Source: Sulfurovaceae bacterium
GTDB taxonomy: Bacteria > Campylobacterota > Campylobacteria > Campylobacterales > Sulfurovaceae
Reading direction: 5' to 3'
Assembly: GCA_016744315.1 (NCBI GenBank)
Contig: JADGER010000002.1
Coordinates: 1-59,470 of the forward strand
Length of the DNA stretch: 59,470 nucleotides
Made by a program: the position numbers and the translations under genes. The notes under the pieces are model-generated. The model was not told where the DNA came from. It saw only the letters and a program-made list of their open reading frames with translations, and did no database searches. Positions 21,646 to 59,470 of the stretch are shown here, piece after piece. Within the stretch, counting starts at the first letter, position 1. The number at the start of each line of letters is the position of its first letter.

Positions 21646-24600
21646 TCAAGATGATTTTACTAAACGAATACAGCATAAAGTATGTCTAATATATCTATTC
21701 TCTTTTTTATCATACCATAGTACTACAAAATCAACCCTAGCACTCTCTATATGATAGTTATCACTCCAAAGAGATTTAATTTTATTTTGGAAACTCTTTG
21801 ATAAACGACCAATACTATTATTATTATAAACTATAGATAAATTATGGTATTGTCCTCTTGGTTCTAGCTTGATATCACTTCCAGCTATTATATCACCTTT
21901 ATAGTTACTAGTAAATCCTAGATATATATCACTCAAACCCATAATAAATGTTTTACTTTTTTCATCTTTTGGGTATAGATTATCATCAAATGTAGATTTT
22001 GAAAATGGCTTATTTTCTAAAGGTTTATTGTGTCTAATCAAGATATCTAATTCATTTTTTGCTCTTGTCATTCCTACATAATAAAGGCGTAATTTTTTAT
22101 CTACCTTAGGTATCTCTTGAACAAGCATAATAACTTTATCAAACTCCATTCCCTTTGATTTGTGAATAGTAGAGACGGTCACTCGTTGTGAGGAGTCTTC
22201 AAACTCTTCTAATGTAACCTCATCAAGATAAGATAGCCATTGCGTAACATAGTAGTTTTGATTTTCAAGCAAAAATTTCTCTATAATTTTTTGGACAATA
22301 TGTATATTTTTTGATTTTTCAAATCTACTCTCTATACTTTTTAATGCCTCCTCAAAATGTTCTCTTTGATAAAATGGATCATATTTGAGAAAAGAATTAA
22401 GAACCTTGTCAAACTCTACAATCTCAACAATATTCTTAAGTTGAAACTTATCCCTATCTATAATAAATTTAGCATTAATACCAATTTCAATTAGCTTAGA
22501 ATATATCTGCATTACTGCTTCATTACTAAATACTAGTATCGCTATATGCTCTTGTTTAGATGATGCCTCTACAATATTTATAGCTGGAGTAATAAGATTA
22601 TTTGAACTACAAGCATAAATATTTACAATGCCATCTTCTTTGGTCTGTGCTATCAATACATTCTTTTTATAGCGTTTAGATACTCTATTAATAAAATTAT
22701 TACTATATCCAACTATATTTTGTTTACTCCTATAATTGCTAAGAAGTTCATACTGCTTAAATAAATTATCTCCCTCTTCATCTTCTCCAAAACACTCTTC
22801 AAACTTCTCTATATATCCTATATCTGCTCCTGCAAATTCATTAATACATTGATCATCATCTCCTACTGCTATGATTCGCATCTCTTGGTTACTTGTACGA
22901 TAAATTGCTTCTACAAATTCAAAACTCTCTTTACTAATATCTTGATACTCATCTAATACCAAAACCCTCTTAAATGGTAAATGTATATCATTATTTATAA
23001 GTTGTCTTGTAGCTTCTGATATAGCCGTATTGAGTGTATTATCATTCTCTTTTATATTGCGTCCAATCAGTTTGAGTGCATAGGAATGAAATGTACTTAT
23101 TTCTATCTCGTATGAAAGTACACCTATAAGTTGCATAAGTCGTTTTCTAAACTCTTGGACTGCTGTGCGTGAAAAGGTTAACATCATAAACTGTTCTGGT
23201 TTAATATCCTCTGTCAATATCAAAGATGCTATCTTATGCACTAAAACTTTGGTTTTTCCACTTCCTGGACCTGCTAGTATCATCATAGCTTTTGTTTCAC
23301 TATCCTCGATAATAGCTTGCTGGGATGGAGACATTTGAGCAAATATTTTTTCATATCGCATCTGTGTTATGGGTCTGGTAATTTTCTCTTTAAGTAATTT
23401 ATATCTTTGTTTAAATTTTGTATAAGGCATTGAGAAATAATCACTCAAAAATGAGTTTGCCTTTTTGCTATCATTTTGAAGTATCTTGGCATATTCACCC
23501 ATTATATGTATAGACTCTACCTTAATTTGATAATGGTTGAAGAGTCTATTCTTATAATCCAAAAGAGTATATCGCTTGTTTTTTATCTTCATCTTCTCCT
23601 CTTTGGCTATGACCATAGGAGAATAACTGATAAATCTTCCGCTTTGTAGTTGGAGTATACCCAATTGATGCAGATAAAGGAGGGTCTTATCAATATCTTT
23701 AATATTATGTATTTTACCTGTCTCCTGATAGAGTGATTGCAAAGAGAAATGTATACTCTTTTGTTTCTCTTTTCCTTGTATCTCTTTAGCAAAGATAGTG
23801 AGTATCTGCTCAGAAATAAGATGTGTTGTATCTATCTTTTCTCCAATTTTTTCTCTATCTTCAAAGGCAAAATACCATAAATCACTCTGTCTATTAATTC
23901 TACTAAAAATAAAGTTAGGTTTTTGTCTCCAATTTTTGATAATATCTTTGATTAATAAAGATTCACTTTTTGTAATAAGCCCTTTTTGATGGAGTATTTC
24001 ATTGAGCTCTTTGATAGTTACTTGTGTAAATTCTGCCATTTGTATAGTGATAAATAACTCTAGTTCTATCTTTTTTATACTGTGAAATTTTTTGAGAGAA
24101 TTAGTATATACAATCAAACTCAAATCTTTATTACTCCCTAATATTTCCATATCTTTAAGCTGTTGAATTGAAAGAGCTATAGTATCCTTTTCATATCCTA
24201 ATAGATGTGCTAATTCATCTATCTGTACCATATCTTTTTTACCTTGTCCAATAATACTCTGAAGTATATCTTGGAGTCTCTCTTTTTCTTCTGCTGAGAA
24301 TTGGCTACCTTCTAGTTTTGAATGGAGGAGTTCTATACTATTTATTGCAAGGGAGTCAGCAAAAAAGTTTATACTATTTCTCTTACGACTAATATAACCT
24401 TCTCTTTCTAACTCTAAGAGTGCTGTTTTGACTTTTGTACTATAATCATTTGCATTATCATCAACATCCCATCCTGCCTCTTTAGCTATCTCAAAAGTTG
24501 TTTTATTGACTAAATCACCTTTGCTTTTTTTGAGTATTCTAAAAATAGAATTAATTTCACTTGCTGTAATTTTGGATCTATTGAGTGTCTCAAAATGTCT

Positions 24601-26445
24601 ATCAAGATCACTTTCATTATAGAGTATAGGACAAAAAGCATTCAGATTTAGATCCCTAGCACCTCTTCCTGCTTCTTGGGCATAGCTCTCTAATGAGTCT
24701 GAGACTTCATAATGTATCACATTTGTGATATTTGATTTATCCACACCCATGCCAAAAGCTGTTGTAGCTATTATCACATCAATATCATCTGAAATATAAT
24801 CTTTCAAAATCGTCATCTTCTCTTGTGACTCTATTTTGGAGTGAAATGATTTAACTATTTTTTGTGTATCCATAGTAAGTCGTTGGGCTACACTATCACA
24901 CTCTTTAGTTGAGGTAGGAATATATACAAGTGTTGAACCATCATGTTTATGAATAAGTTCAAGTAATTTGGTATACTTATCCTTACTCTGGGAAGGAATA
25001 GATTTGTATTGGAGATTTTTTCTTTGAGGGCTTGCTATATATTCATCTAGTTCAATATCTAATCCTTCTTTAAAAAATTGTTTAATATCTTCTATTACAC
25101 TTGGTTTCGCTGTAGCAGTAAAACAAGAAATAGGTATATGCTCTTGAAAAGATTTGGCATCTAATAAGTCTGTAATATAGTTACATATATAGTAATAATC
25201 TTGCCTAAAATCATTTCCCCAAGTCGAAAGACAGTGAGCCTCATCTATTACAAATCTCTCAATATATCTATTTTTGAGGATAGAAAATATTGCTTTTGAT
25301 CGTAAAGATTCAGGAGCAAGATAGAGTAGATCTGCTTCACCGCTAATCACTTGTTCTACAGCTTCACTTCTTTCTAGTGGACTCATATATCCACTAATAG
25401 CCACCGCTTTATAATTAGCTACTTTGGCATTGAAATTTTTGATATGATCTTCTATAAGTGCTTGCAGAGGGGAAATAACTACTGTGAGTCCTTTGTATGT
25501 TTTTGCCTTAATAATAGCAGGAAGCCAAAAGGTAAAAGTCTTTCCTCCCCCTGTTGGTAAAACTGTCAAAAAAGATTCATCCCTTAAGGAAGCTTCTATC
25601 ACATCTCTTTGAGATATTTGATTACTTCCTAAAAGTGTTGGGTTCATCTTTGGAAAAGGTCGGAAAGTACCAAAGCCAAAAATATCTTTAGCAAGATCAT
25701 TCAATCCACTATTAAGTTTCTCCAAATTAAAACATAATTTTTTCTGTATCTCTACTATATTTTTATGCGTATAGAGTATTTTTGGTGGATGTGATTTAAT
25801 CTCAATATGTGGTGCAAGCAATGCTAATATATACGCTAACTCTATAGGACTACTCTCTATAGTTTTTTGTAGGTGATAGAGATTTGTAATTTGATTTTTA
25901 TAGAGAGTAATAATACTCTTATGCAATGAATTATTATCAATATATTTTAATGCTGTAAAATCATTCAGATATGCAAAAAAACCTTTAAAATGCTCTTTCT
26001 CTCTAAGAAGAGAGTAAAAAATTATTTTCATCTCCTCATCAAGAGCAAAAAACCTTTTAGTAAGTTGCAGTAATAATTCAGATGTAAGCTTCGAGTCCTC
26101 TACAGGATCATTTATAAAATTATCTTCACTTTTATACTCTTTGGGCAGTGCATGCAAACTTTTTTCATTAAGCAATAGCAAAGAGAGTGGCAGAGTATCT
26201 ATAATTGTATAACTTTTGATAGCATCATAGAGAATAGTATCTTTAATCATCTCCAAATCAAAATCTACAAAATTATGACCACAGATATATTTAGCTTGAC
26301 AGAGTTTCATAACATTTGCAATCTTTTTTGGAGAAGATGTTTTGAACTTTTTCTCTTTATAGACTAACCCTATATTTATTATTTTTTTAGATTTTATAGT
26401 GATTTCAAAATCCAAAAAGATAATACTATTTTGATTAATATTCAA
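21646..26445 (-). CDS. Fusion protein: N-terminal DEDD exonuclease-like domain + RecQ-type SF2 helicase + UvrD/Rep-type SF1 helicase (1599 aa)
   Basis: N-term FLDFEIT / CGHNFVDFDLEMI / DPVEDSKLTSELLLQL (DEDD-like); RecQ LPTGGGKTFTFWLPAI, VIDEAHCLSTWGNDFRQDY, TAFGMGVDKSNITNVIHYEV..YAQEAGRGARD; UvrD AGPGSGKTKVLVHKIASL, VLDEYQDIS, VGDDDQCINEFAGA, STIHKSKGMEFDKVIML, LYYVGMTRAKNELDIL. Confidence 0.9.
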   Translation of the reverse strand: MNINQNSIIFLDFEITIKSKKIINIGLVYKEKKFKTSSPKKIANVMKLCQAKYICGHNFVDFDLEMIKDTILYDAIKSYTIIDTLPLSLLLLNEKSLHALPKEYKSEDNFINDPVEDSKLTSELLLQLTKRFFALDEEMKIIFYSLLREKEHFKGFFAYLNDFTALKYIDNNSLHKSIITLYKNQITNLYHLQKTIESSPIELAYILALLAPHIEIKSHPPKILYTHKNIVEIQKKLCFNLEKLNSGLNDLAKDIFGFGTFRPFPKMNPTLLGSNQISQRDVIEASLRDESFLTVLPTGGGKTFTFWLPAIIKAKTYKGLTVVISPLQALIEDHIKNFNAKVANYKAVAISGYMSPLERSEAVEQVISGEADLLYLAPESLRSKAIFSILKNRYIERFVIDEAHCLSTWGNDFRQDYYYICNYITDLLDAKSFQEHIPISCFTATAKPSVIEDIKQFFKEGLDIELDEYIASPQRKNLQYKSIPSQSKDKYTKLLELIHKHDGSTLVYIPTSTKECDSVAQRLTMDTQKIVKSFHSKIESQEKMTILKDYISDDIDVIIATTAFGMGVDKSNITNVIHYEVSDSLESYAQEAGRGARDLNLNAFCPILYNESDLDRHFETLNRSKITASEINSIFRILKKSKGDLVNKTTFEIAKEAGWDVDDNANDYSTKVKTALLELEREGYISRKRNSINFFADSLAINSIELLHSKLEGSQFSAEEKERLQDILQSIIGQGKKDMVQIDELAHLLGYEKDTIALSIQQLKDMEILGSNKDLSLIVYTNSLKKFHSIKKIELELFITIQMAEFTQVTIKELNEILHQKGLITKSESLLIKDIIKNWRQKPNFIFSRINRQSDLWYFAFEDREKIGEKIDTTHLISEQILTIFAKEIQGKEKQKSIHFSLQSLYQETGKIHNIKDIDKTLLYLHQLGILQLQSGRFISYSPMVIAKEEKMKIKNKRYTLLDYKNRLFNHYQIKVESIHIMGEYAKILQNDSKKANSFLSDYFSMPYTKFKQRYKLLKEKITRPITQMRYEKIFAQMSPSQQAIIEDSETKAMMILAGPGSGKTKVLVHKIASLILTEDIKPEQFMMLTFSRTAVQEFRKRLMQLIGVLSYEIEISTFHSYALKLIGRNIKENDNTLNTAISEATRQLINNDIHLPFKRVLVLDEYQDISKESFEFVEAIYRTSNQEMRIIAVGDDDQCINEFAGADIGYIEKFEECFGEDEEGDNLFKQYELLSNYRSKQNIVGYSNNFINRVSKRYKKNVLIAQTKEDGIVNIYACSSNNLITPAINIVEASSKQEHIAILVFSNEAVMQIYSKLIEIGINAKFIIDRDKFQLKNIVEIVEFDKVLNSFLKYDPFYQREHFEEALKSIESRFEKSKNIHIVQKIIEKFLLENQNYYVTQWLSYLDEVTLEEFEDSSQRVTVSTIHKSKGMEFDKVIMLVQEIPKVDKKLRLYYVGMTRAKNELDILIRHNKPLENKPFSKSTFDDNLYPKDEKSKTFIMGLSDIYLGFTSNYKGDIIAGSDIKLEPRGQYHNLSIVYNNNSIGRLSKSFQNKIKSLWSDNYHIESARVDFVVLWYDKKENRYIRHTLCCIRLVKSS

Positions 26446-28706: not shown

Positions 28707-29333
28707 ATGAAGTTAGCAGTGTTTGATTTTGATTCAACATTAATGGATGGAGAGACTATAGACTTTTTGGCAGCACCACTAGGACTAGAAGAGCAAGTAG
28801 CAGAGATAACTCACCGTGCTATGGCTGGAGAACTAGACTTTTATGACTCTTTGATAGAAAGAGTAAAACTCTTAGAAGGTGCTAATTTAGCAACTGTTAT
28901 TGAAACTTGTAAAAATCTTCCTATGATGGATGGAGCCAAAGAAGTTGTAGCAGGACTCAAAAGCAAAGGCTATACAGTAGTATGTTTTTCTGGTGGATTT
29001 AGATTTGCAACTACTCCTGCTTGCCAAGCCTTGGGAATGGATGCAGATTTTGCAAATTTTTTACACCACAAAGATGGACTTCTTACGGGAAAAGTTGGGG
29101 GTGAAATGATGTATAGTGAGGCAAAAGGTGATATGATTATGCGTCTTCAAAACCTACTAGGTATAGATAGAAAAAATACACTTGTAGTAGGTGATGGAGC
29201 CAATGATTTAAGTATGTTTGCCCATGCTGATACACGCGTAGCTTTTTGTGCAAAACCAATACTTAGACAAGAAGCTACGCATACAGTAGATACCAAAGAT
29301 TTAACACAGATACTAGATATAGTCTCTCTTTAG
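28707..29333 (+). CDS. serB: Phosphoserine phosphatase (HAD family)
   Basis: 208 aa; FDFDSTLMDGETIDFLA, VCFSGGFRFATTPACQALGMDADFANFL, VVGDGANDLSMFAHADTRVAFCAKP. Confidence 0.92.
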   Translation: MKLAVFDFDSTLMDGETIDFLAAPLGLEEQVAEITHRAMAGELDFYDSLIERVKLLEGANLATVIETCKNLPMMDGAKEVVAGLKSKGYTVVCFSGGFRFATTPACQALGMDADFANFLHHKDGLLTGKVGGEMMYSEAKGDMIMRLQNLLGIDRKNTLVVGDGANDLSMFAHADTRVAFCAKPILRQEATHTVDTKDLTQILDIVSL

Positions 29334-30878
29334 TACCTCTTTGTCTACCTCTTTTTCATGCAAAGATTTAAGAGGCATACTCTGCTTAAATTGTATTTTC
29401 TCAGGCAACATATAATTTGGCAGATGCTTTTTCATCTCAAATAAAATTTCATTTTTTGCTAATTCACTTTTGGCACTATAAATAAGTACTATCTCTTCTT
29501 CAATCTCTTCATTAGGCACAGAAAAGACTGCACAAGAACTGATAGCTGTAATATTATCTTGGACTACTTTTTCTATTTCATAAGGACTCACTCGATACCC
29601 ACGCGTTTTTATCATATCATCTTTTCGCGATACAAAATAAATATATCCCTCTTCATCTGCATACACAAAATCCCCACTAGCTATCACAATCTCATCTGTT
29701 AATTGCCCTTGAGGTTTGATAACTTTATCTAATATTTTTATCGACTTAAACCTTTTGGCTGTCTCTTGGGGGTCATTCCAGTATCCTTTGTAGATACATG
29801 CTCCTCTATGAATAAGCTCTCCTATCTCATGAGGCTTACAAGAGACACCTTCTTCATTAATAATATAAAGCTCCACATCAGGAATAGCCTTGCCTATAGA
29901 ATTAGGGCGTGTAGAGAGTTGTAAGGGGTCAAGATAGCTAGAACGAAAGGCTTCTGTGAGTCCATGCATAGCATAAAGTTTACTGCTAGAAAAATGTGTT
30001 TTTATATTCTCTAACATTACAGGCGTAAGATTGCCTCCTGAAGCTGTAATCGTATGAAGATTTTTAAAATGTGCTGATTGAGGAATACGGTGAATATCTT
30101 CATCAAACATTTGCGTAATATGAATAGGCATCAATGCAAGCACTGTAATTTTATCATTAATCAAATGTGTAAAAAAGTCTGATGGCAAAATAAATTTATG
30201 AATTACAAGTGTAGCTCTTCTGTAGAGTGTGGCAAGAATTTGGTTAATACCATAATCAAGGTTAAACGATAGTATCCCTGACAACACATCATTTTTACGA
30301 AGATCAAGATAATTTGCCACTATTCTAGCACCATCAATCAAAGCTCTATTATCAATCACTATCCCTCGTGGATTACCTGATGAACCAAAACTATAAGTAA
30401 TACACGCATTATCATGCCCATGTAATCTACACGATATATCACCCGAATAAAACTTATAAATCTCATCAAAAGAGACATCACTCTGCTCATTAGCTTTGTA
30501 AGAAATAATTTTACCCTGAAAATCAATAGATTTAATACTCTCAATCTTACTCATATCTGTAATAATAGCACTCATCTCACAATCATCAACAATATGCTTA
30601 ACCTGCTCTGCTTTGAGTAACTTTGTAATAGGAACAAAAAGATACTCTGTAGAAAGCACCGCAAGAATAGCTATAACTTGATTTGAACCCTTTGTAGAGT
30701 AAATACCAATACGACTCCCTTTGGGCAAATCAAGGTGAATAAGGTATTGTGCTACCTTATCAACTTTTTCTTTGAGTTGCAAATAGGTATAACGAGTAGC
30801 CCCATCCACAAGCCCTATCTTATCAGGCTCAACCTGAGCAGCTCTCTCAACCAAATTACGAATAGTGTTTACGGACAT
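29313..30878 (-). CDS. AMP-forming acyl-CoA synthetase/ligase family protein
   Basis: 521 aa; ITYSFGSSGNPRGIVIDNRALIDGA (P-loop), YAMHGLTEAFRSSYL, GELIHRGACIYKGYWNDPQETAKRF, SGDFVYADEEGYIYFVSRKDDMIKTRGYRVSPYEIE. Confidence 0.9.
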   Translation of the reverse strand: MSVNTIRNLVERAAQVEPDKIGLVDGATRYTYLQLKEKVDKVAQYLIHLDLPKGSRIGIYSTKGSNQVIAILAVLSTEYLFVPITKLLKAEQVKHIVDDCEMSAIITDMSKIESIKSIDFQGKIISYKANEQSDVSFDEIYKFYSGDISCRLHGHDNACITYSFGSSGNPRGIVIDNRALIDGARIVANYLDLRKNDVLSGILSFNLDYGINQILATLYRRATLVIHKFILPSDFFTHLINDKITVLALMPIHITQMFDEDIHRIPQSAHFKNLHTITASGGNLTPVMLENIKTHFSSSKLYAMHGLTEAFRSSYLDPLQLSTRPNSIGKAIPDVELYIINEEGVSCKPHEIGELIHRGACIYKGYWNDPQETAKRFKSIKILDKVIKPQGQLTDEIVIASGDFVYADEEGYIYFVSRKDDMIKTRGYRVSPYEIEKVVQDNITAISSCAVFSVPNEEIEEEIVLIYSAKSELAKNEILFEMKKHLPNYMLPEKIQFKQSMPLKSLHEKEVDKEVLKRDYI

Positions 30879-30893
30879 TTTTGCTCCTTTATT

Positions 30894-31445
30894 TTATATA
30901 TTAACATCATTTTGTACTATATCAGAAAATTTTATCTCTACTTCACTATTTGCTGTGAAAAATGAGCGTTTTGTATATCGTAAGCGTGTAGAAGCAAAGA
31001 TATTTAAATGTTCTCTCTTATTCCAATTCATCTCTTTTTGGGCCACTAAAATACCAAAAATATTTATTTTTTGCTTAGATTTTCCCTCTAAAAGATGAAG
31101 TAAAATATAAATAAAAGAGAGAGAATTTCTAAATTTATCTAAAATTTTATTTTGATTCCCAACTTGTTCACTTTTTAATTCAACCATAATAATATTTAAA
31201 ATATCATCAGCTGTTTGTTCTAAAATTATATTTTCTACTTTTTTACCTTGTAATTGAAAAGCATTAGATTCTGTATCAATAATCCAGTATTTAGATTTAT
31301 TATCTAATAATCTAATAATAATTTTTTTTAATTTAGCACTCTTATTATTTTCTTCAATAATAATTTTATCTTCACTTATTTCTTGAATAAAAGATTCTGC
31401 CTTAAAAAAATCAAAAATATTTTGTTTATCTAAACTATGCATCAT
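30894..31445 (-). CDS. Uncharacterised 183-aa protein with D..ExK-like motif (possible PD-(D/E)XK nuclease fold)
   Basis: ...WIIDTESNAFQLQGKKVENIILEQTADDILNIIMVELKSEQVGNQNKILDKFRNSLSFIYILLHLLEGK...; start overlaps upstream ATPase stop by 11 bp. Fold assignment is tentative. Confidence 0.55.
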   Translation of the reverse strand: MMHSLDKQNIFDFFKAESFIQEISEDKIIIEENNKSAKLKKIIIRLLDNKSKYWIIDTESNAFQLQGKKVENIILEQTADDILNIIMVELKSEQVGNQNKILDKFRNSLSFIYILLHLLEGKSKQKINIFGILVAQKEMNWNKREHLNIFASTRLRYTKRSFFTANSEVEIKFSDIVQNDVNI

Positions 31446-32544
31446 AACTTTCTAACTTATCCATAATATCTTCATATTGTCTATTTTGTAACTCCTCCAC
31501 TTCTGTAAAAGTCCCAAAGTGTATATCTGAATTATTATCTTTTTTATACGAAATTATAGTCTTACCATTAAAATAATAGATTCCAACATCATTACTTTTT
31601 AAGCTAATATCTATATTCATAGCTAAATTATTTTTTGCTACAAATTCTTTTATATCTATATTCTTCTTTTTCAAATCAAAAAGATGTATATAATTTATAA
31701 TAGTTTTGGCAATAGTAGCACTATGCGTAGCTATCAAAAGTTTATTTTCACTTGCAAAACTCATAAGTAACTCTATAATTTCTATTTTTTTAGATGGATG
31801 TAAATTCATCTCTGGCTCATCCATTATTAAAAAACTATTCTCTTTTTGATACCAATATTTAAAATAGAGATATAAAGTGGAGAGTTGATTGACCATAGAT
31901 GAGCTAAGATACATCGGAATATTTTCACCTGATTTATGAGTGTAAGATATATCTGCCATTCCTATCTCTTCGGCTCTATCTACAGATATATTACCCTCTA
32001 TTATCTGAGCTAATGTATCTAAATATCTATTATGCTCTAAAGGTTTATCAAGAGAGAATATAAGTTTTTTAATTAAATCATCTACTGGTTGAGTATATGA
32101 TGGTGCATAAAATTTTTTATTACTTTCATTAATATTATCAAAATTTCTAAACATAGAGTCTTTAAAATCTTTTTCTGTCTTAAAGATATATTTATAAAAT
32201 GAGGGGAGAAATAAACGGCTTGATGGAAGGAATATAGACTCGCTATATAAGGACTCTCTATCTATTTTCTCTATAATAATTTGAAAAATAGCTTCTATAT
32301 CTTTGTTAAATATTTTTTTTACTAGATACTCTTTGATATATTTTGTAAACTCTATTGATAATTGCTCTAAAGAAGTTGTATCATCCTTTTTTATATAAGA
32401 TAAACTAGAATAAATTCCCCAAATCAACTGTGATAAATATGTTTTACCACTATTGTTTTGTCCTACAAAAAGTGTGAGTTTTTTAGATAAATCTATCTCA
32501 CACCTTTGTGTAATTGGTGGGAATTTATAAATAATTAATTTCAC
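31435..32544 (-). CDS. OLD/ABC-type AAA ATPase (AAA_15/AAA_21-like)
   Basis: Walker A LFVGQNNSGKTYLSQL, signature-like YLSSSMVNQLSTLYLYF, Walker B FLIMDEPEMNLHPSKK, H-loop LIATHSATIAKTI. Preferred GTG start at 32544 (GTGA overlap with upstream stop) instead of track ATG at 32565. Confidence 0.82.
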   Translation of the reverse strand: MKLIIYKFPPITQRCEIDLSKKLTLFVGQNNSGKTYLSQLIWGIYSSLSYIKKDDTTSLEQLSIEFTKYIKEYLVKKIFNKDIEAIFQIIIEKIDRESLYSESIFLPSSRLFLPSFYKYIFKTEKDFKDSMFRNFDNINESNKKFYAPSYTQPVDDLIKKLIFSLDKPLEHNRYLDTLAQIIEGNISVDRAEEIGMADISYTHKSGENIPMYLSSSMVNQLSTLYLYFKYWYQKENSFLIMDEPEMNLHPSKKIEIIELLMSFASENKLLIATHSATIAKTIINYIHLFDLKKKNIDIKEFVAKNNLAMNIDISLKSNDVGIYYFNGKTIISYKKDNNSDIHFGTFTEVEELQNRQYEDIMDKLESYDA

Positions 32545-33731
32545 TCTCCAACCCCATAAGTCCATATCTCGTACTTTTTATCAAGGATAATAGTTGGTGT
32601 ATGGTGGAAGTGGAGTATTTTTTTGTAGAAAAAGAGTGTAATATCATCTACATCTTCTTGGGTGAGTACTTTGGTGATACCGCCTGTGAGGATAATATTA
32701 TTAAGGAGTTCTAGGTTAAGTTCTATATACGATGCATGGTGTTTTGAGACTTTGTAGAGGACTAGGAATATGGAGAGTTGCATGAGAACTCGTATTGCTT
32801 CATCACTATATTCTTCTAGGATGTTTTCTGTAACATTAAGATGTTCAAGAAGTTCAAAAACAAACTCATTTTGTTTGGCTATATGCACAAGACTCTCACG
32901 AGATTTGAATACACCTAGTTTTTTGAATACCAATCTATCATAGCCATGTTCACTTAATATATTATCATTAACTAAATCACGACTATAGTGTATATCTGTT
33001 GTAGCTCCACCAATATCTATAACAATAAAAGGATTGGCAACTTCTAGGTGTTGATCTATTTTGGGGAGGGAGCGATTGACAATATATGGTGTCGAAAATA
33101 TTTGATTGCTTGTAAGTGCATAGAGTTGTTTAATATCTTCTTTACCCACTATATCTGCTTGATAAAGGTCGGTAAGGTAATTTTTGAGTGCTTCTTCTTG
33201 TATTTGAAGTTTGTCTGATATAATATTTTCCAAACAAACAATACTATCCACTTTCTCTTTGAGAAATGTATGATTTGTTTGGCTTCCAACGAAGACTATA
33301 TTTTGGTAGTTTACTTTTGCTAGATACTCTGTAAGCTTTTCATCAAATGGCTGTTGCACGGAGTCAATACCACCTACAACAATCACTACATCTATCATCT
33401 CTTTTGGTATTTCCTCTTGGCTAATCTTAGAGTACAGTACCGTAGAGATAATATTAATCCCTGAATTAAACGCAATATTCACAGCATATTTTAGACTAAA
33501 AGAGTTTGTCAGCCCTATGATAAGTGTGGTTAGCCCACCATTGGCTGAACTACAGATATAAGTATCTTCTTTACTGTATTGTCCTAATACATCACTGCAC
33601 TTACTCTCTAAATCATTTAAAATAGTTGTTTCAAAATTTCTAAAATATTGATTTATTGCTACAGCATTATCTTGAGTTTTCTCTGCAACCTTGAAGTAAG
33701 TACTCCCAATATCTATTAATAATCTACTCAT
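32541..33731 (-). CDS. MutL/GlmL-family (glutamate mutase activator-like) actin-fold ATPase
   Basis: 396 aa; LIDIGSTYFKVAE, YICSSANGGLTTLIIGL, VGGIDSVQQPFDEKLTEYLAKVNYQNIVFVGSQTNH, FIVIDIGGATTDIHYSR. Confidence 0.78.
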   Translation of the reverse strand: MSRLLIDIGSTYFKVAEKTQDNAVAINQYFRNFETTILNDLESKCSDVLGQYSKEDTYICSSANGGLTTLIIGLTNSFSLKYAVNIAFNSGINIISTVLYSKISQEEIPKEMIDVVIVVGGIDSVQQPFDEKLTEYLAKVNYQNIVFVGSQTNHTFLKEKVDSIVCLENIISDKLQIQEEALKNYLTDLYQADIVGKEDIKQLYALTSNQIFSTPYIVNRSLPKIDQHLEVANPFIVIDIGGATTDIHYSRDLVNDNILSEHGYDRLVFKKLGVFKSRESLVHIAKQNEFVFELLEHLNVTENILEEYSDEAIRVLMQLSIFLVLYKVSKHHASYIELNLELLNNIILTGGITKVLTQEDVDDITLFFYKKILHFHHTPTIILDKKYEIWTYGVGE

Positions 33732-33795: not shown

Positions 33796-34863
33796 CTACT
33801 CTTTTCTCCCTCTAAGTACATCTAATACATTTGTAGCATACGAGCCTTTTGGCAAAAAGAATCCTATCTCATAATGGGCTTTTTCTTCAACATATTTCTT
33901 TTCAATATTATTTACTTGTATCCAAGCATATCTTCTTGTACCACTTTGTTTTGTTGGTTGGTCAAACTCTTTTTCTATCTTTTCTGCTACACCTTGGGCT
34001 CGTTTAACTTTGTCTCCTGCTAACAAACCTGTAGGTGCTATATCTTTGCTAGCAAATCGCTCGGCTTCTGTGTTAAGGTCTTCTATATGAAATACGCGTC
34101 CATACGGATAGTGCATCATCAAATCACCCTCCAAAAGTTTAAAAAATTGTGTTTGATTTTTGGTATTTGCAAGAGAACCTTTTTCAAACTGTAGAATAGA
34201 CTCAACTTCATTTTCTGAAAATTGTTCTAATAGCAAAGAAATTTCAACTCTTTTAGATAACCATTGATTAAAAAGATAACTTTGATACGAGCCAATTAAA
34301 AACTCTTTTGTTTTTCTATCTCTTATTTTTAATTTTCCATCTATTATTTTTTTGCCGTCTACCCAGTTATTTCCATCTGTACCAAATCTTTGATTTCCAA
34401 AATAATTTGGTACTCCATTGGCTTTTATCCACTTAAGCACTGAGTCTAATTTATCTTTTTGGACTCCTAGTACCTTTTTAAGTCTAATCTGAAAACGATT
34501 TCCTTTGAGGTGTCCTACTCTAATTTTATTATTATGTCTTGTAGTCTCTAAAATTTTTATTTTATCATGAGTAAAGGCATCTAATTTTGTAGCATTTGAG
34601 GCAAGGAGTGAGATGTATTGTATAGTCATAGCATGTTTGTCTTTGAGTCCTGCATAGCCTATATCTCGTCTTTTGATACCAAGATGATTACTAATTACAT
34701 CTATCATTTCCCAAGTAGTTAACTCTTTTTTGCGTACTTTCAAGATAAGGTGTTCGCCTTCTCCTGTAAACTCATACAAAGGAATTTCTTCGACTGTAAA
34801 ATCTCTAGCAGAGGAGTTAAATACAAACTCATTCATATTATTGAGAGGATAAAGTACTTTCAT
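33796..34863 (-). CDS. truD: tRNA pseudouridine(13) synthase TruD
   Basis: 355 aa; FTVEEIPLYEFTGEGEHLILKVRKKELTTWEMI, IGYAGLKDKHAMTIQYISL, VPNYFGNQRFGTDGNNW. Confidence 0.95.
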   Translation of the reverse strand: MKVLYPLNNMNEFVFNSSARDFTVEEIPLYEFTGEGEHLILKVRKKELTTWEMIDVISNHLGIKRRDIGYAGLKDKHAMTIQYISLLASNATKLDAFTHDKIKILETTRHNNKIRVGHLKGNRFQIRLKKVLGVQKDKLDSVLKWIKANGVPNYFGNQRFGTDGNNWVDGKKIIDGKLKIRDRKTKEFLIGSYQSYLFNQWLSKRVEISLLLEQFSENEVESILQFEKGSLANTKNQTQFFKLLEGDLMMHYPYGRVFHIEDLNTEAERFASKDIAPTGLLAGDKVKRAQGVAEKIEKEFDQPTKQSGTRRYAWIQVNNIEKKYVEEKAHYEIGFFLPKGSYATNVLDVLRGRKE

Positions 34864-35426
34864 TAGTCAATCTCCAAAACAGAATACACTTTGGTATTAA
34901 TCTTCTCTTTGGCATTCAAAAATTTAAGTTCCATAATAAAACAACATTCTACACACTCAGCACCTACTTGAGCAATAAGATCAACAGAAGCCTTAGCCGT
35001 GCCACCTGTAGCTATAAGGTCATCAATCAAAAGTACACGAGATGGATTAGCAAAACTATTCAAACCTCTATCACCAAAAGCATCAATATGTACTTCAACC
35101 TCGTCAACTCCATATTCTAATGAATATTTTTGAGCAACAGTTGTATATGGAAGTTTCCCTTTTTTGCGTATAGGCACAAATCCAATTCCTAGTCTATCAG
35201 CCAAAACAGCACCAAAGATAAATCCTCTTGCATCAATACCTGCAATATAATCTAGCTCATACTCACTATAACGATCAGCTAAATGATCCATTAATGTTTT
35301 AAATGCCTTACTATCTCCAAGCATAGTTGTAATATCTTTAAAAACAATCCCTGCCTTTGGAAAGTCTTGAATATCTCTAATACTCTCTAAAATAATCTTT
35401 TTATCACTTTGACTCAGTTCTTTCAT
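34863..35426 (-). CDS. apt: Adenine phosphoribosyltransferase
   Basis: 187 aa; [41 protein letters not shown] motif [18 protein letters not shown]. Confidence 0.96.
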
Positions 35427-49111: not shown

Positions 49112-50212
49112 TTACACTAGAATCAACTCCAAAACCTTAGACAAATTTTTCTTGCTCACTCCAAGTTGAGGGATAAGTCTCATAATAGGCTCTGTAACTG
49201 TAGGTTGCCGTATCGCTCCCACAATAAAACCCTCTGCTATCAGTTGTTCTTGTATCTCTATAACTTTTTTATTAGATTCCTGAGGCAGTGCTATAATAAG
49301 TGAATTAGCATGAATTCCTGTTAGCTTTTTAACTATCTCCAAACGCTCTTGAATTTTTTTATAATATTTATCAGCTTTTTTGGCTACAAATTCTATATTA
49401 ACAAGGGCTAAAGCTGTATCAAAAACTGATGGAGCTGTAGAATATATCACAGGTTTAGCACGATTTTCAAGAAAAGAGATAATCTCAGAACTAGAGAGTA
49501 TATACGCCCCATAACTTCCATATGCTTTACCTAGTGTTCCCATTTTAATATGATAAGGAGTCACTGCTATATTATAATATTCAAATACTCCTAGCAAATG
49601 TTCGCCTAATACTCCAGAGCTATGAGCCTCATCCACAATCATCAAAGCCTCATGCCTCTCTACCACAGCAAATATCTCACGACTACAGACCACACCACTC
49701 ATAGAATAAACACCCTCTACAGCAACTATCTTTCGTCTAGCATTTGACGCAAGAAGTTTTTTCTCTAAATCTTCTGCATCATTATGAGCAAATAGTACAA
49801 CCTTATCACCCAACAACCCTGAAGCCATCACCCCACTCGCATGATACTCTTCATCCATAAAAAGCATATCCCCTTTGCGAACCAAAGCCTCAATAAGTGA
49901 TATATTTGCCAAAAATCCAGACCCCACCACAAGCCCCTCTTCAAAGCCATTAAGCTCTGCCAGTCTTTCTTCAAAAAGCTTATGAATAGGATGATACCCA
50001 TTCACAAGCATACTCGCTTTTGGTGCAAAAGTATTATATTGTTCCACAAGTTTAATAGCCTTTTTAAACTGCTTTTTATTTGTAGAGAGTCCTAGATAAT
50101 CATTAGATGCTAAGTCTATCAAAGACGCATCAAAAATCTTCCGCTGACGAAATCGCCCTGACCTTTTGAGAGCTTTTAGTTGGGTTTGATACATGTTATT
50201 CACAACTATCAT
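49112..50212 (-). CDS. bioF: 8-amino-7-oxononanoate synthase-like PLP enzyme
   Basis: 366 aa; IDLASNDYLGLSTNKK, VVGSGFLANISLIEALV, VAVEGVYSMSGVV, MIVDEAHSSGVLGEHLLG, IKMGTLGKAYGSYGAYI. True start may be the internal ATG at MYQTQLK. Confidence 0.88.
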   Translation of the reverse strand: MIVVNNMYQTQLKALKRSGRFRQRKIFDASLIDLASNDYLGLSTNKKQFKKAIKLVEQYNTFAPKASMLVNGYHPIHKLFEERLAELNGFEEGLVVGSGFLANISLIEALVRKGDMLFMDEEYHASGVMASGLLGDKVVLFAHNDAEDLEKKLLASNARRKIVAVEGVYSMSGVVCSREIFAVVERHEALMIVDEAHSSGVLGEHLLGVFEYYNIAVTPYHIKMGTLGKAYGSYGAYILSSSEIISFLENRAKPVIYSTAPSVFDTALALVNIEFVAKKADKYYKKIQERLEIVKKLTGIHANSLIIALPQESNKKVIEIQEQLIAEGFIVGAIRQPTVTEPIMRLIPQLGVSKKNLSKVLELILV

Positions 50213-51158
50213 TCAAAGGTATATTCTTTTGTTTACAATATACCTCAACTTCAGATTCAATTAATAAATATTTATCACAAAACTCATCAAATTCTTTCTC
50301 TATTGATTTATAATATCGTTCTTGAACTGCTAATGCTTTTTCTGTTAGTTCAATAAAACTTTCATATTTTTGATTTACTTTACAGAGTTTATCAATAGTT
50401 TTAAAATCTAACTCTCTAAATTTAGATTGGAATAAAATTTTACTTTCATACGGATTTGCTTTTAGTTCAATAATACCAATTCCAAAAGATTGATTGAGTC
50501 GTTCCATTTCATCTTTTAAACTATCACTAATTTCAAAAGCAACTAAATATCCATAATTTGCCCAACTTGAGTTTGATACTGCTTGGAAATAACATTTTTT
50601 TAGTTCATAATCTGTATTTATCTCTTTTTTGATTTCATAAGATGTTAGCTTAAATGTATCAGCCTTATTTAAAATTTTCATAAAAGCTTTATTTACTGTT
50701 GATGTTAAGTTTAAAAACTCAATTCCTATCATATCTGGATGTATCCATTTTTGATGGTCATCTTTGCTATTTTTTGACTCTTCATGAAGAATTGTTTTTG
50801 AATAAATATTTTTACTTTTTAGATAACTACTTAGTAGTATATGCAAATCTCTCTCTTTATAAGTTTTCTTTATTTTTTGTACTTCATTTACTAGAGTATC
50901 CAACTCTTCAATAACTATATTTTGTTCGTTTTTTGATAAATAATAAAAATATGTACCACTATTTGCTTTATTACGATGAACTCTTGAATCATTTTTTCTA
51001 ATAAAATCACCTAAGAGTGCTGATATTGTTGCATCAGGTGTTTTTGCATTTTTAAAATCATAATATTTATTTTTTCGAATATTTGCTAAAACTTCTTTAT
51101 GATTTGATGGTTTTTGTAAATCTTCTAAACTTTTTAATATTGCTTCTTTAACGGTCAT
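50196..51158 (-). CDS. HrgA-like protein: HARE-HTH N-terminus plus putative PD-(D/E)XK-like C-terminal domain
   Basis: 320 aa; MTVKEAILKSLEDLQKPSNHKEVLANIRKNKYYDFKNAKTPDATISALLGDFIRKNDSRVHR (HARE-HTH-like); WIHPDMIGIEFL...SYEIKKEI (D..ExK-like). Reminiscent of the Helicobacter HrgA/COG2958 family. Confidence 0.65.
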   Translation of the reverse strand: MTVKEAILKSLEDLQKPSNHKEVLANIRKNKYYDFKNAKTPDATISALLGDFIRKNDSRVHRNKANSGTYFYYLSKNEQNIVIEELDTLVNEVQKIKKTYKERDLHILLSSYLKSKNIYSKTILHEESKNSKDDHQKWIHPDMIGIEFLNLTSTVNKAFMKILNKADTFKLTSYEIKKEINTDYELKKCYFQAVSNSSWANYGYLVAFEISDSLKDEMERLNQSFGIGIIELKANPYESKILFQSKFRELDFKTIDKLCKVNQKYESFIELTEKALAVQERYYKSIEKEFDEFCDKYLLIESEVEVYCKQKNIPLNDSCE

Positions 51159-58689: not shown

Positions 58690-59470
58690 TTATTCTAGTA
58701 TATAAACTAATTCATATAATTCACTATTAGACCTATTTAAAGCATAAGAATGATTATTTAATATATATTTGTTACAGCTTTTTTTATATCTTTTAAAAAT
58801 TATTTCCAATTCATCTGATGATGGTATACCATCATTTCTATATGAAAAAATAATTATTTTATCTTGATATTTAGAAATTATTTTTTCTATATCGGTATGT
58901 ATTGTCTCTTTTGATTCAAATTCTTTAGATTGATTAATCATCACTTCTTTATTATTTTTCATTGGATTAATATAATTGATAAAATCATTATAATTAACTA
59001 ATGCTTCTAAAAAATGATATCTTGAATGATAATTTACATGTGAACCTTTTTTTGAGATATATGGAGGATCTATATAGATTAAATCTGCATTTACTCTACA
59101 TTTTAATGCAGAAGAGTTATATGATTTATTTTTTTGATTATTAGAAGTAATATAACTATTTATTTCTAAAGAGAATTTTTGAAAAGTCTCAATTAAATCT
59201 TTGTCCCATGTTACTTTATTTCCAAAAGTTCTTTTTACATCTCTAGTTCTTAGAGATAGATTTTTACGATGAAATGTATTGAAAGGTCTTTTTATAAGTG
59301 TTGTTTGAAAAAGTGCATAATATCCCATAGCTTGTTTTATATTACCTTTTAAATGACTAATGTTTTGAACAATAATATCAATTATTTTATTTTCATCATC
59401 TAAAAAATATATATCTTGATAATTCTTTTCTATATAATTTTTATATTTTATATTTTTGTGTTTAGTAATT
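58690..59470 (-). CDS. D12-class DNA adenine methylase, 5' end outside window
   Basis: IYIDPPYISKKGSHVNYHSRYHFLEALVNYNDFI; own translation stays open upstream of the track start through 59470 (...ITKHKNIKYKNYIEKNYQDIYFLDDENKIIDIIVQNISHLKGNIKQAMGYYALFQTTLIKRPF). Confidence 0.85.
   Translation of the reverse strand, partial: ITKHKNIKYKNYIEKNYQDIYFLDDENKIIDIIVQNISHLKGNIKQAMGYYALFQTTLIKRPFNTFHRKNLSLRTRDVKRTFGNKVTWDKDLIETFQKFSLEINSYITSNNQKNKSYNSSALKCRVNADLIYIDPPYISKKGSHVNYHSRYHFLEALVNYNDFINYINPMKNNKEVMINQSKEFESKETIHTDIEKIISKYQDKIIIFSYRNDGIPSSDELEIIFKRYKKSCNKYILNNHSYALNRSNSELYELVYILE

Follow-up and report, generated by a model that had tools for sequence, protein, structure and literature searches.

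The window (the whole 59,470-nucleotide stretch analyzed, from a Sulfurovaceae bacterium) contains a compact minus-strand locus that is, in our judgment, probably composite: it would combine the displaced glmL-ligase half of a glutamate mutase operon with a self-contained two-gene defence cassette, A/B, inserted at a site that seems replaceable, the same junction being filled by a Septu system in a sister species. The four genes of the locus are real but do not form a single system; the parts are ordinary and only their arrangement is unusual. The features discussed below are the following.

29313..30878, minus strand: AMP-forming ligase, or stand-alone adenylation enzyme (521 aa; AMP-binding 1.4e-55; TIGR03098 2.6e-138, below cut-off)
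30894..31445, minus strand: cassette gene B, small PD-(D/E)xK-like protein (183 aa; PADLOC PD-T4-4_B 9e-4)
31435..32544, minus strand: cassette gene A, OLD/PtuA-class ABC ATPase (369 aa from GTG; PADLOC PD-T4-4_A 3.2e-23; AAA_15 1.3e-15)
32541..33731, minus strand: glmL, MutL family (396 aa; Pfam MutL 1.9e-30; NF040745 GlmL 2.8e-28, below cut-off)
30889..32544, minus strand: inserted segment of 1656 bp (BLASTN of the window against L022, a locus of the sister species, and junction alignment)
33796..35426, minus strand: apt and truD, open reading frames directly upstream of glmL and in the same direction

All four reading frames are open, and the close spacing described in the initial annotation was confirmed: glmL and the ATPase gene overlap by 4 bp (GTGA), the ATPase and small-protein genes overlap by 11 bp, and a gap of 15 bp separates the latter from the ligase. 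The ATPase would start at a GTG inside the glmL stop. An alternative ATG at 32565 would give a protein of 376 aa and a 25-bp overlap; we favor the GTG because homologues of the ATPase begin at this residue (M/V/L-K-L-I-I). The 11-bp A/B overlap recurs where the pair stands alone (L113, L114, and L115) and is therefore a feature of the cassette, not one created by this locus.

As judged from sequence comparison, the two outer genes correspond to the distal half of the conserved operon glmS-glmE-glmL-ligase, which encodes a B12-dependent glutamate mutase (glmS, glmE), GlmL, by family the reactivator of this mutase, and, in last position, an adenylating enzyme. In relatives, glmL and the ligase are preceded by a B12-binding protein of 134–143 aa (family match 3.3e-11) and a methylaspartate mutase E chain of 450–454 aa (Met_asp_mut_E, 2.7e-118). 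GlmS, GlmE, and GlmL are contiguous in these genomes, whereas they are on different contigs in both the window genome and the sister species (G009), which shows the same glmS-glmE/glmL-ligase split. The initial remark that no glutamate mutase is present thus holds for the window, but not for the genome: glmS-glmE lie on contig G000:C266, flanked by a glycerol-3-phosphate dehydrogenase gene and a yebC-like gene, and their products are 87% (GlmS) and 90% (GlmE) identical to the relatives' proteins. Compared with its relatives, the glmL of the window is intact and keeps the native C-terminus WTYGVGE. GlmL was detected in 21 of 60 relatives and GlmE in 20, all of which carry GlmL too; class-wide, GlmL and the ligase were each found in 57 of 397 genomes. 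The operon, exemplified by L214, L218, and L219, is kept patchily, in about one-seventh of the class-wide genomes, and in other genomes is broken at the glmE-glmL junction instead, by a LysM protein (L035 and L039), a sensor-kinase-like protein (L032), or several opposite-strand genes including one for an ankyrin protein (L029). Literature searches returned no work linking glmS-glmE-glmL-ligase to Campylobacterota, nor any that mentions both glutamate mutase and Sulfurovum or both methylaspartate mutase and Sulfurimonas.

The ligase resembles amino-acid adenylation domains in the PDB (VinN-like 3wvn, 5.8e-32, among many adenylation domains), and its invariant D208 falls, in the alignment, on the conserved Asp with which NRPS adenylation domains bind the amino group. 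In vicenistatin-type clusters, glutamate mutase yields 3-methylaspartate, which the adenylating enzyme VinN loads onto a carrier protein (PMC5785472). By analogy, the operon may make and activate the product of the B12 mutase, possibly 3-methylaspartate, which would be the putative substrate of the ligase. We put this product forward as a hypothesis because neither a carrier protein nor a decarboxylase was found beside the operon among the ten neighbors tested. The VinH/VinI/VinN starter pathway is similar in associating glutamate mutase subunits with an adenylating enzyme; the present case differs from it in that lack and in the separation of glmL-ligase from glmS-glmE in the window genome.

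When the searches of relatives, family, and class were pooled, 80 Campylobacterota genomes had both glmL and the ligase on one contig. The two matches lie 5–205 nt apart (median 21) in 78 of them, and genes are present between the two only in the window genome (1665 nt) and in G009 (1889 nt). Other candidates were discarded: as a third filled site, G197, in which a normal ligase start comes after glmL at the contig end and a second ligase fragment adjoins an RHS-repeat protein; and, as interrupted sites, G548, where the ligase follows glmL immediately at a contig end, and G529, with other genes after glmL. In G046 and G007, glmL and the ligase are on different contigs, and no defence pair was recognized beside either in flanks inspected without a PADLOC scan.

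In G009, the junction is occupied by a PtuA1-type ATPase (6.1e-35) and, next to it, a PtuB1-type HNH protein (2.9e-39), that is, by Septu. Nucleotide homology between the window and G009 extends as far as 32545, so that only the final four bases of glmL lie beyond it, and starts again at 30888, ten bases ahead of the ligase ATG; in the interval, none was found between the two cassettes. The ligase start and its ribosome-binding site are kept, and neither neighbor of the cassette is damaged. Both filled genomes have GGAG at each border of the cassette (32549–32546 and 30887–30884 in the window), and in the closest uninterrupted relatives the last glmL codons (AAGGAG-stop) double as the ribosome-binding site of the ligase. 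The two filled genomes share the sequence AGGAGCAAAA ahead of the ligase ATG, from which the short spacers of most empty relatives differ. The GC content is 0.258 in A and 0.221 in B, versus 0.337 in glmL, 0.351 in the ligase, and 0.342 in the window as a whole. By eye, no transposase, integrase, or phage gene was recognized among the neighboring reading frames. The empty state is not visible in the apt-truD context because gene order at truD is not conserved in other species of the genus. Two fragmented draft genomes are the basis for regarding the site as replaceable and for the proposed exchange, exact to the base, of unrelated defence pairs within an operon.

The product of A has the Walker A, signature, Walker B, and H-loop motifs of an ABC ATPase, which are invariant; conserved are G28-x-N30-N-S-G33-K34-T, D242-E243-P-E, and H274. 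Its profile matches an OLD-family structure. The predicted model (pLDDT 81) matches the ATPases of retrons, PtuA, and AriA with E-values of about 1e-7 to 1e-6, at global TM-scores of only about 0.4. No Toprim domain was detected in the Pfam scan of its 369 residues, which comprise the ATPase only; A thus differs from the OLD and Gabija nucleases by the absence of the C-terminal Toprim nuclease domain of that class. Its stretch between the Walker A and signature motifs lacks about 75 residues compared with the closest relative, so that partial decay may have occurred; this region varies in length in the family. We found no match to A in 50,697 phage records that would indicate a phage origin, and viral contigs encode only distantly similar ATPases, a few of which adjoin a weak match to B.

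The assignment of B relies on fainter similarities. Its PADLOC match to PD-T4-4_B is weak (9e-4), and its model (pLDDT 79) has weak fold matches that are not significant (best E 0.046), mostly to PD-(D/E)xK nucleases and including BsmI, McrC, and EndoMS. Five residues are invariant in 14 homologues (E32, E59, E89, K91, and K104), two of which form the motif E89-x-K91; the protein thus carries E-x-K, not HNH, and PtuB models gave no match to it.

A and B together make up a self-contained two-gene cassette, which is probably a divergent relative of two anti-phage pairs, PD-T4-4 and WonAB. PD-T4-4 is a two-gene anti-phage system found on an ICE-like element (Vassallo et al. 2022, PMC9519451); WonAB, from the prophage-borne locus of Vibrio cholerae WASA-1, combines an OLD-class ABC ATPase with a PD-(D/E)xK partner and was related by its authors to PD-T4-4 and to a broader family of ATPase sensors and nucleases (PMC12137116). 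The window A scores 80.6 bits against PD-T4-4_A, compared with 870 bits for a near-canonical copy on an Escherichia marmotae plasmid. We scanned one genome for each of 84,980 species with short conserved peptides, a search that is not exhaustive, and A homologues emerged at 21 other loci, which belong to Campylobacterota, Gammaproteobacteria (Thiomargarita and Parabeggiatoa), Bacteroidota and their neighbors, and Cyanobacteria. A B homologue lies directly downstream of A in 15 of the 21, and none of the fetched flanks contains GlmL, GlmE, or the ligase (0/21). The middle pair is therefore linked to itself elsewhere, just as glmL and the ligase are adjacent without it in nearly all Campylobacterota with both genes. 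The initial annotation also knew of no described system with this gene set, which is correct for the four genes together but not for the parts, since a PD-T4-4/WonAB-like defence pair and a glutamate mutase operon are both of described kinds.

Other loci of the same genome drew our attention. On another contig (G000:C271:27087-29728), two more ATPases distantly similar to A lie close together and are possibly another defence locus. Within the window, and by eye, the minus strand encodes a 1599-aa protein in which an exonuclease-like N-terminus appears to be fused to RecQ-like and UvrD-like helicases (21646–26445), a protein whose N-terminus is HARE-HTH-like and whose gene lies between housekeeping genes (50196–51158) and, near the contig end, an adenine-methyltransferase-like reading frame with a DPPY motif (58690–59328); the last two are possible restriction-modification remnants.

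The genes apt, truD, glmL, A, B, and the ligase are codirectional, with no terminator-like site between them, and the order apt-truD-glmL is the same in G009. The strongest promoter-like site of the region lies upstream of apt (35484–35455; TTGATA-18-TATAAT, 11/12 matches, extended -10) and is preceded by a terminator-like site (35539–35512), whereas none of the listed promoter-like sites falls in the 64-nt gap between truD and glmL; all these sites were called by consensus matching only, and the genome is AT-rich. The simplest interpretation is that housekeeping genes and the defence pair share a transcript, with apt-truD probably at its head.

The most likely function of the cassette, by analogy with its relatives, is abortive phage defence expressed from a housekeeping operon. 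WonAB causes abortive infection with translation arrest, and the toxicity of WonB requires WonA (PMC12137116). On this model, the cassette, seated between the glmL end and the ribosome-binding site of the ligase, would probably depend for its expression on the host operon's transcription and, through the GTGA overlap, on translational coupling. A would dimerize and sense a signal derived from infection; an ATP-dependent rearrangement would then activate B, which, as we infer from WonAB, would cleave nucleic acid, possibly RNA needed for translation, so that the infected cell would stop phage production and the infection would be aborted. GlmL and the ligase would take no part in this defence. 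The explanation is weakened because the profile and fold matches of B are as faint as described above, because the B profile made here also misses the B of the near-canonical E. marmotae PD-T4-4 copy, which served as a yardstick, and because the mechanism is borrowed from WonAB.

How the four genes came to be packed together can be accounted for in several ways. The tight spacing and overlaps led to the initial suggestion of one multicomponent system made of a GlmL-like ATPase, an OLD-type ATPase, a small nuclease-like protein, and a ligase, which could, for example, provide defence with an adenylated signal. This is contradicted by the uninterrupted glmL-ligase junction in 78/80 genomes, by the occurrence of the pair apart from both outer genes at all 21 other loci, and by the unrelated pair at the same site in G009, and we hold it to be extremely improbable. 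The same three observations give strong support to the other suggestion made at the outset, that a MutL-ligase metabolic pair was invaded by an ATPase-effector cassette. The pair might also be a domesticated regulator or a toxin-antitoxin-like stabilizer of the operon instead of a phage defence, as its position between metabolic genes, with translational overlap, and the toxicity of related ATPase-nuclease pairs when unbalanced (WonB, PMC12137116) could suggest. We consider this unlikely, since its relatives are known anti-phage systems and what replaces it in the sister species, Septu, is anti-phage as well.

If A/B is an inserted defence cassette, the history of the site may have taken two courses. 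Septu and the PD-T4-4-like pair could have inserted independently into an empty, permissive junction. The two cassettes share no nucleotide homology, and the GGAG on both borders is the one that ends glmL in empty relatives, so that the junction itself may favor entry. On the other hand, AGGAGCAAAA, common to both filled genomes and unlike most empty spacers, fits a single entry followed by replacement, and no other filled site was seen among the 80 genomes; independent insertion is a real possibility that nevertheless falls short of being probable. More tentatively still, and with some doubt, we propose that compact ATPase-nuclease defence pairs are actively and scarlessly exchanged at the glmL-ligase junction, where they would borrow promoter and translation from the working housekeeping operon and dispense with mobile-element machinery.

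Searches for defence systems generally focus on islands, prophages, and large hotspots. In the present case, a single two-gene defence system would reside inside a metabolic operon, with another one at the same bases in a sister species, and our literature search on defence genes inserted in operons returned nothing relevant. If such arrangements are common, island-based searches overlook these cassettes and operon membership misleads functional guesses, as it did with the apparent four-gene system; and if the exchange-site proposal is true, operon junctions form a reservoir of single defence cassettes that has been overlooked. The locus further draws attention to a conserved operon of Campylobacterota, consisting of glmS, glmE, glmL, and the gene of an adenylating enzyme.

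Among known systems, the window pair resembles PD-T4-4 (PMC9519451) in design, with an OLD-class ATPase first and a small candidate PD-(D/E)xK protein second, but it is divergent, the insert in A is shorter, and no mobile element was recognized beside it. The likeness to WonAB, by description and not by sequence, is in the association of an OLD-class ABC ATPase with a partner that is, in the window, a putative PD-(D/E)xK protein, and the difference in location, within a prophage for WonAB and inside a chromosomal metabolic operon for the window pair. Septu (PtuA/PtuB) is likewise an ATPase and nuclease pair, and A shares its general ATPase fold, whereas B departs from PtuB in the nuclease motif. 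As for the site, at the core defence hotspots of Pseudomonas aeruginosa, too, the defence system found between given conserved chromosomal genes varies, and 29–47% of these sites have no detectable mobile gene (PMC10250203). They differ in size, from 1 to 224 kb (cDHS1) versus one pair of 1.7–1.9 kb; here the borders are base-exact and inside an operon, and two unrelated pairs occupy the space between the same bases, in 2 of the 80 genomes only.
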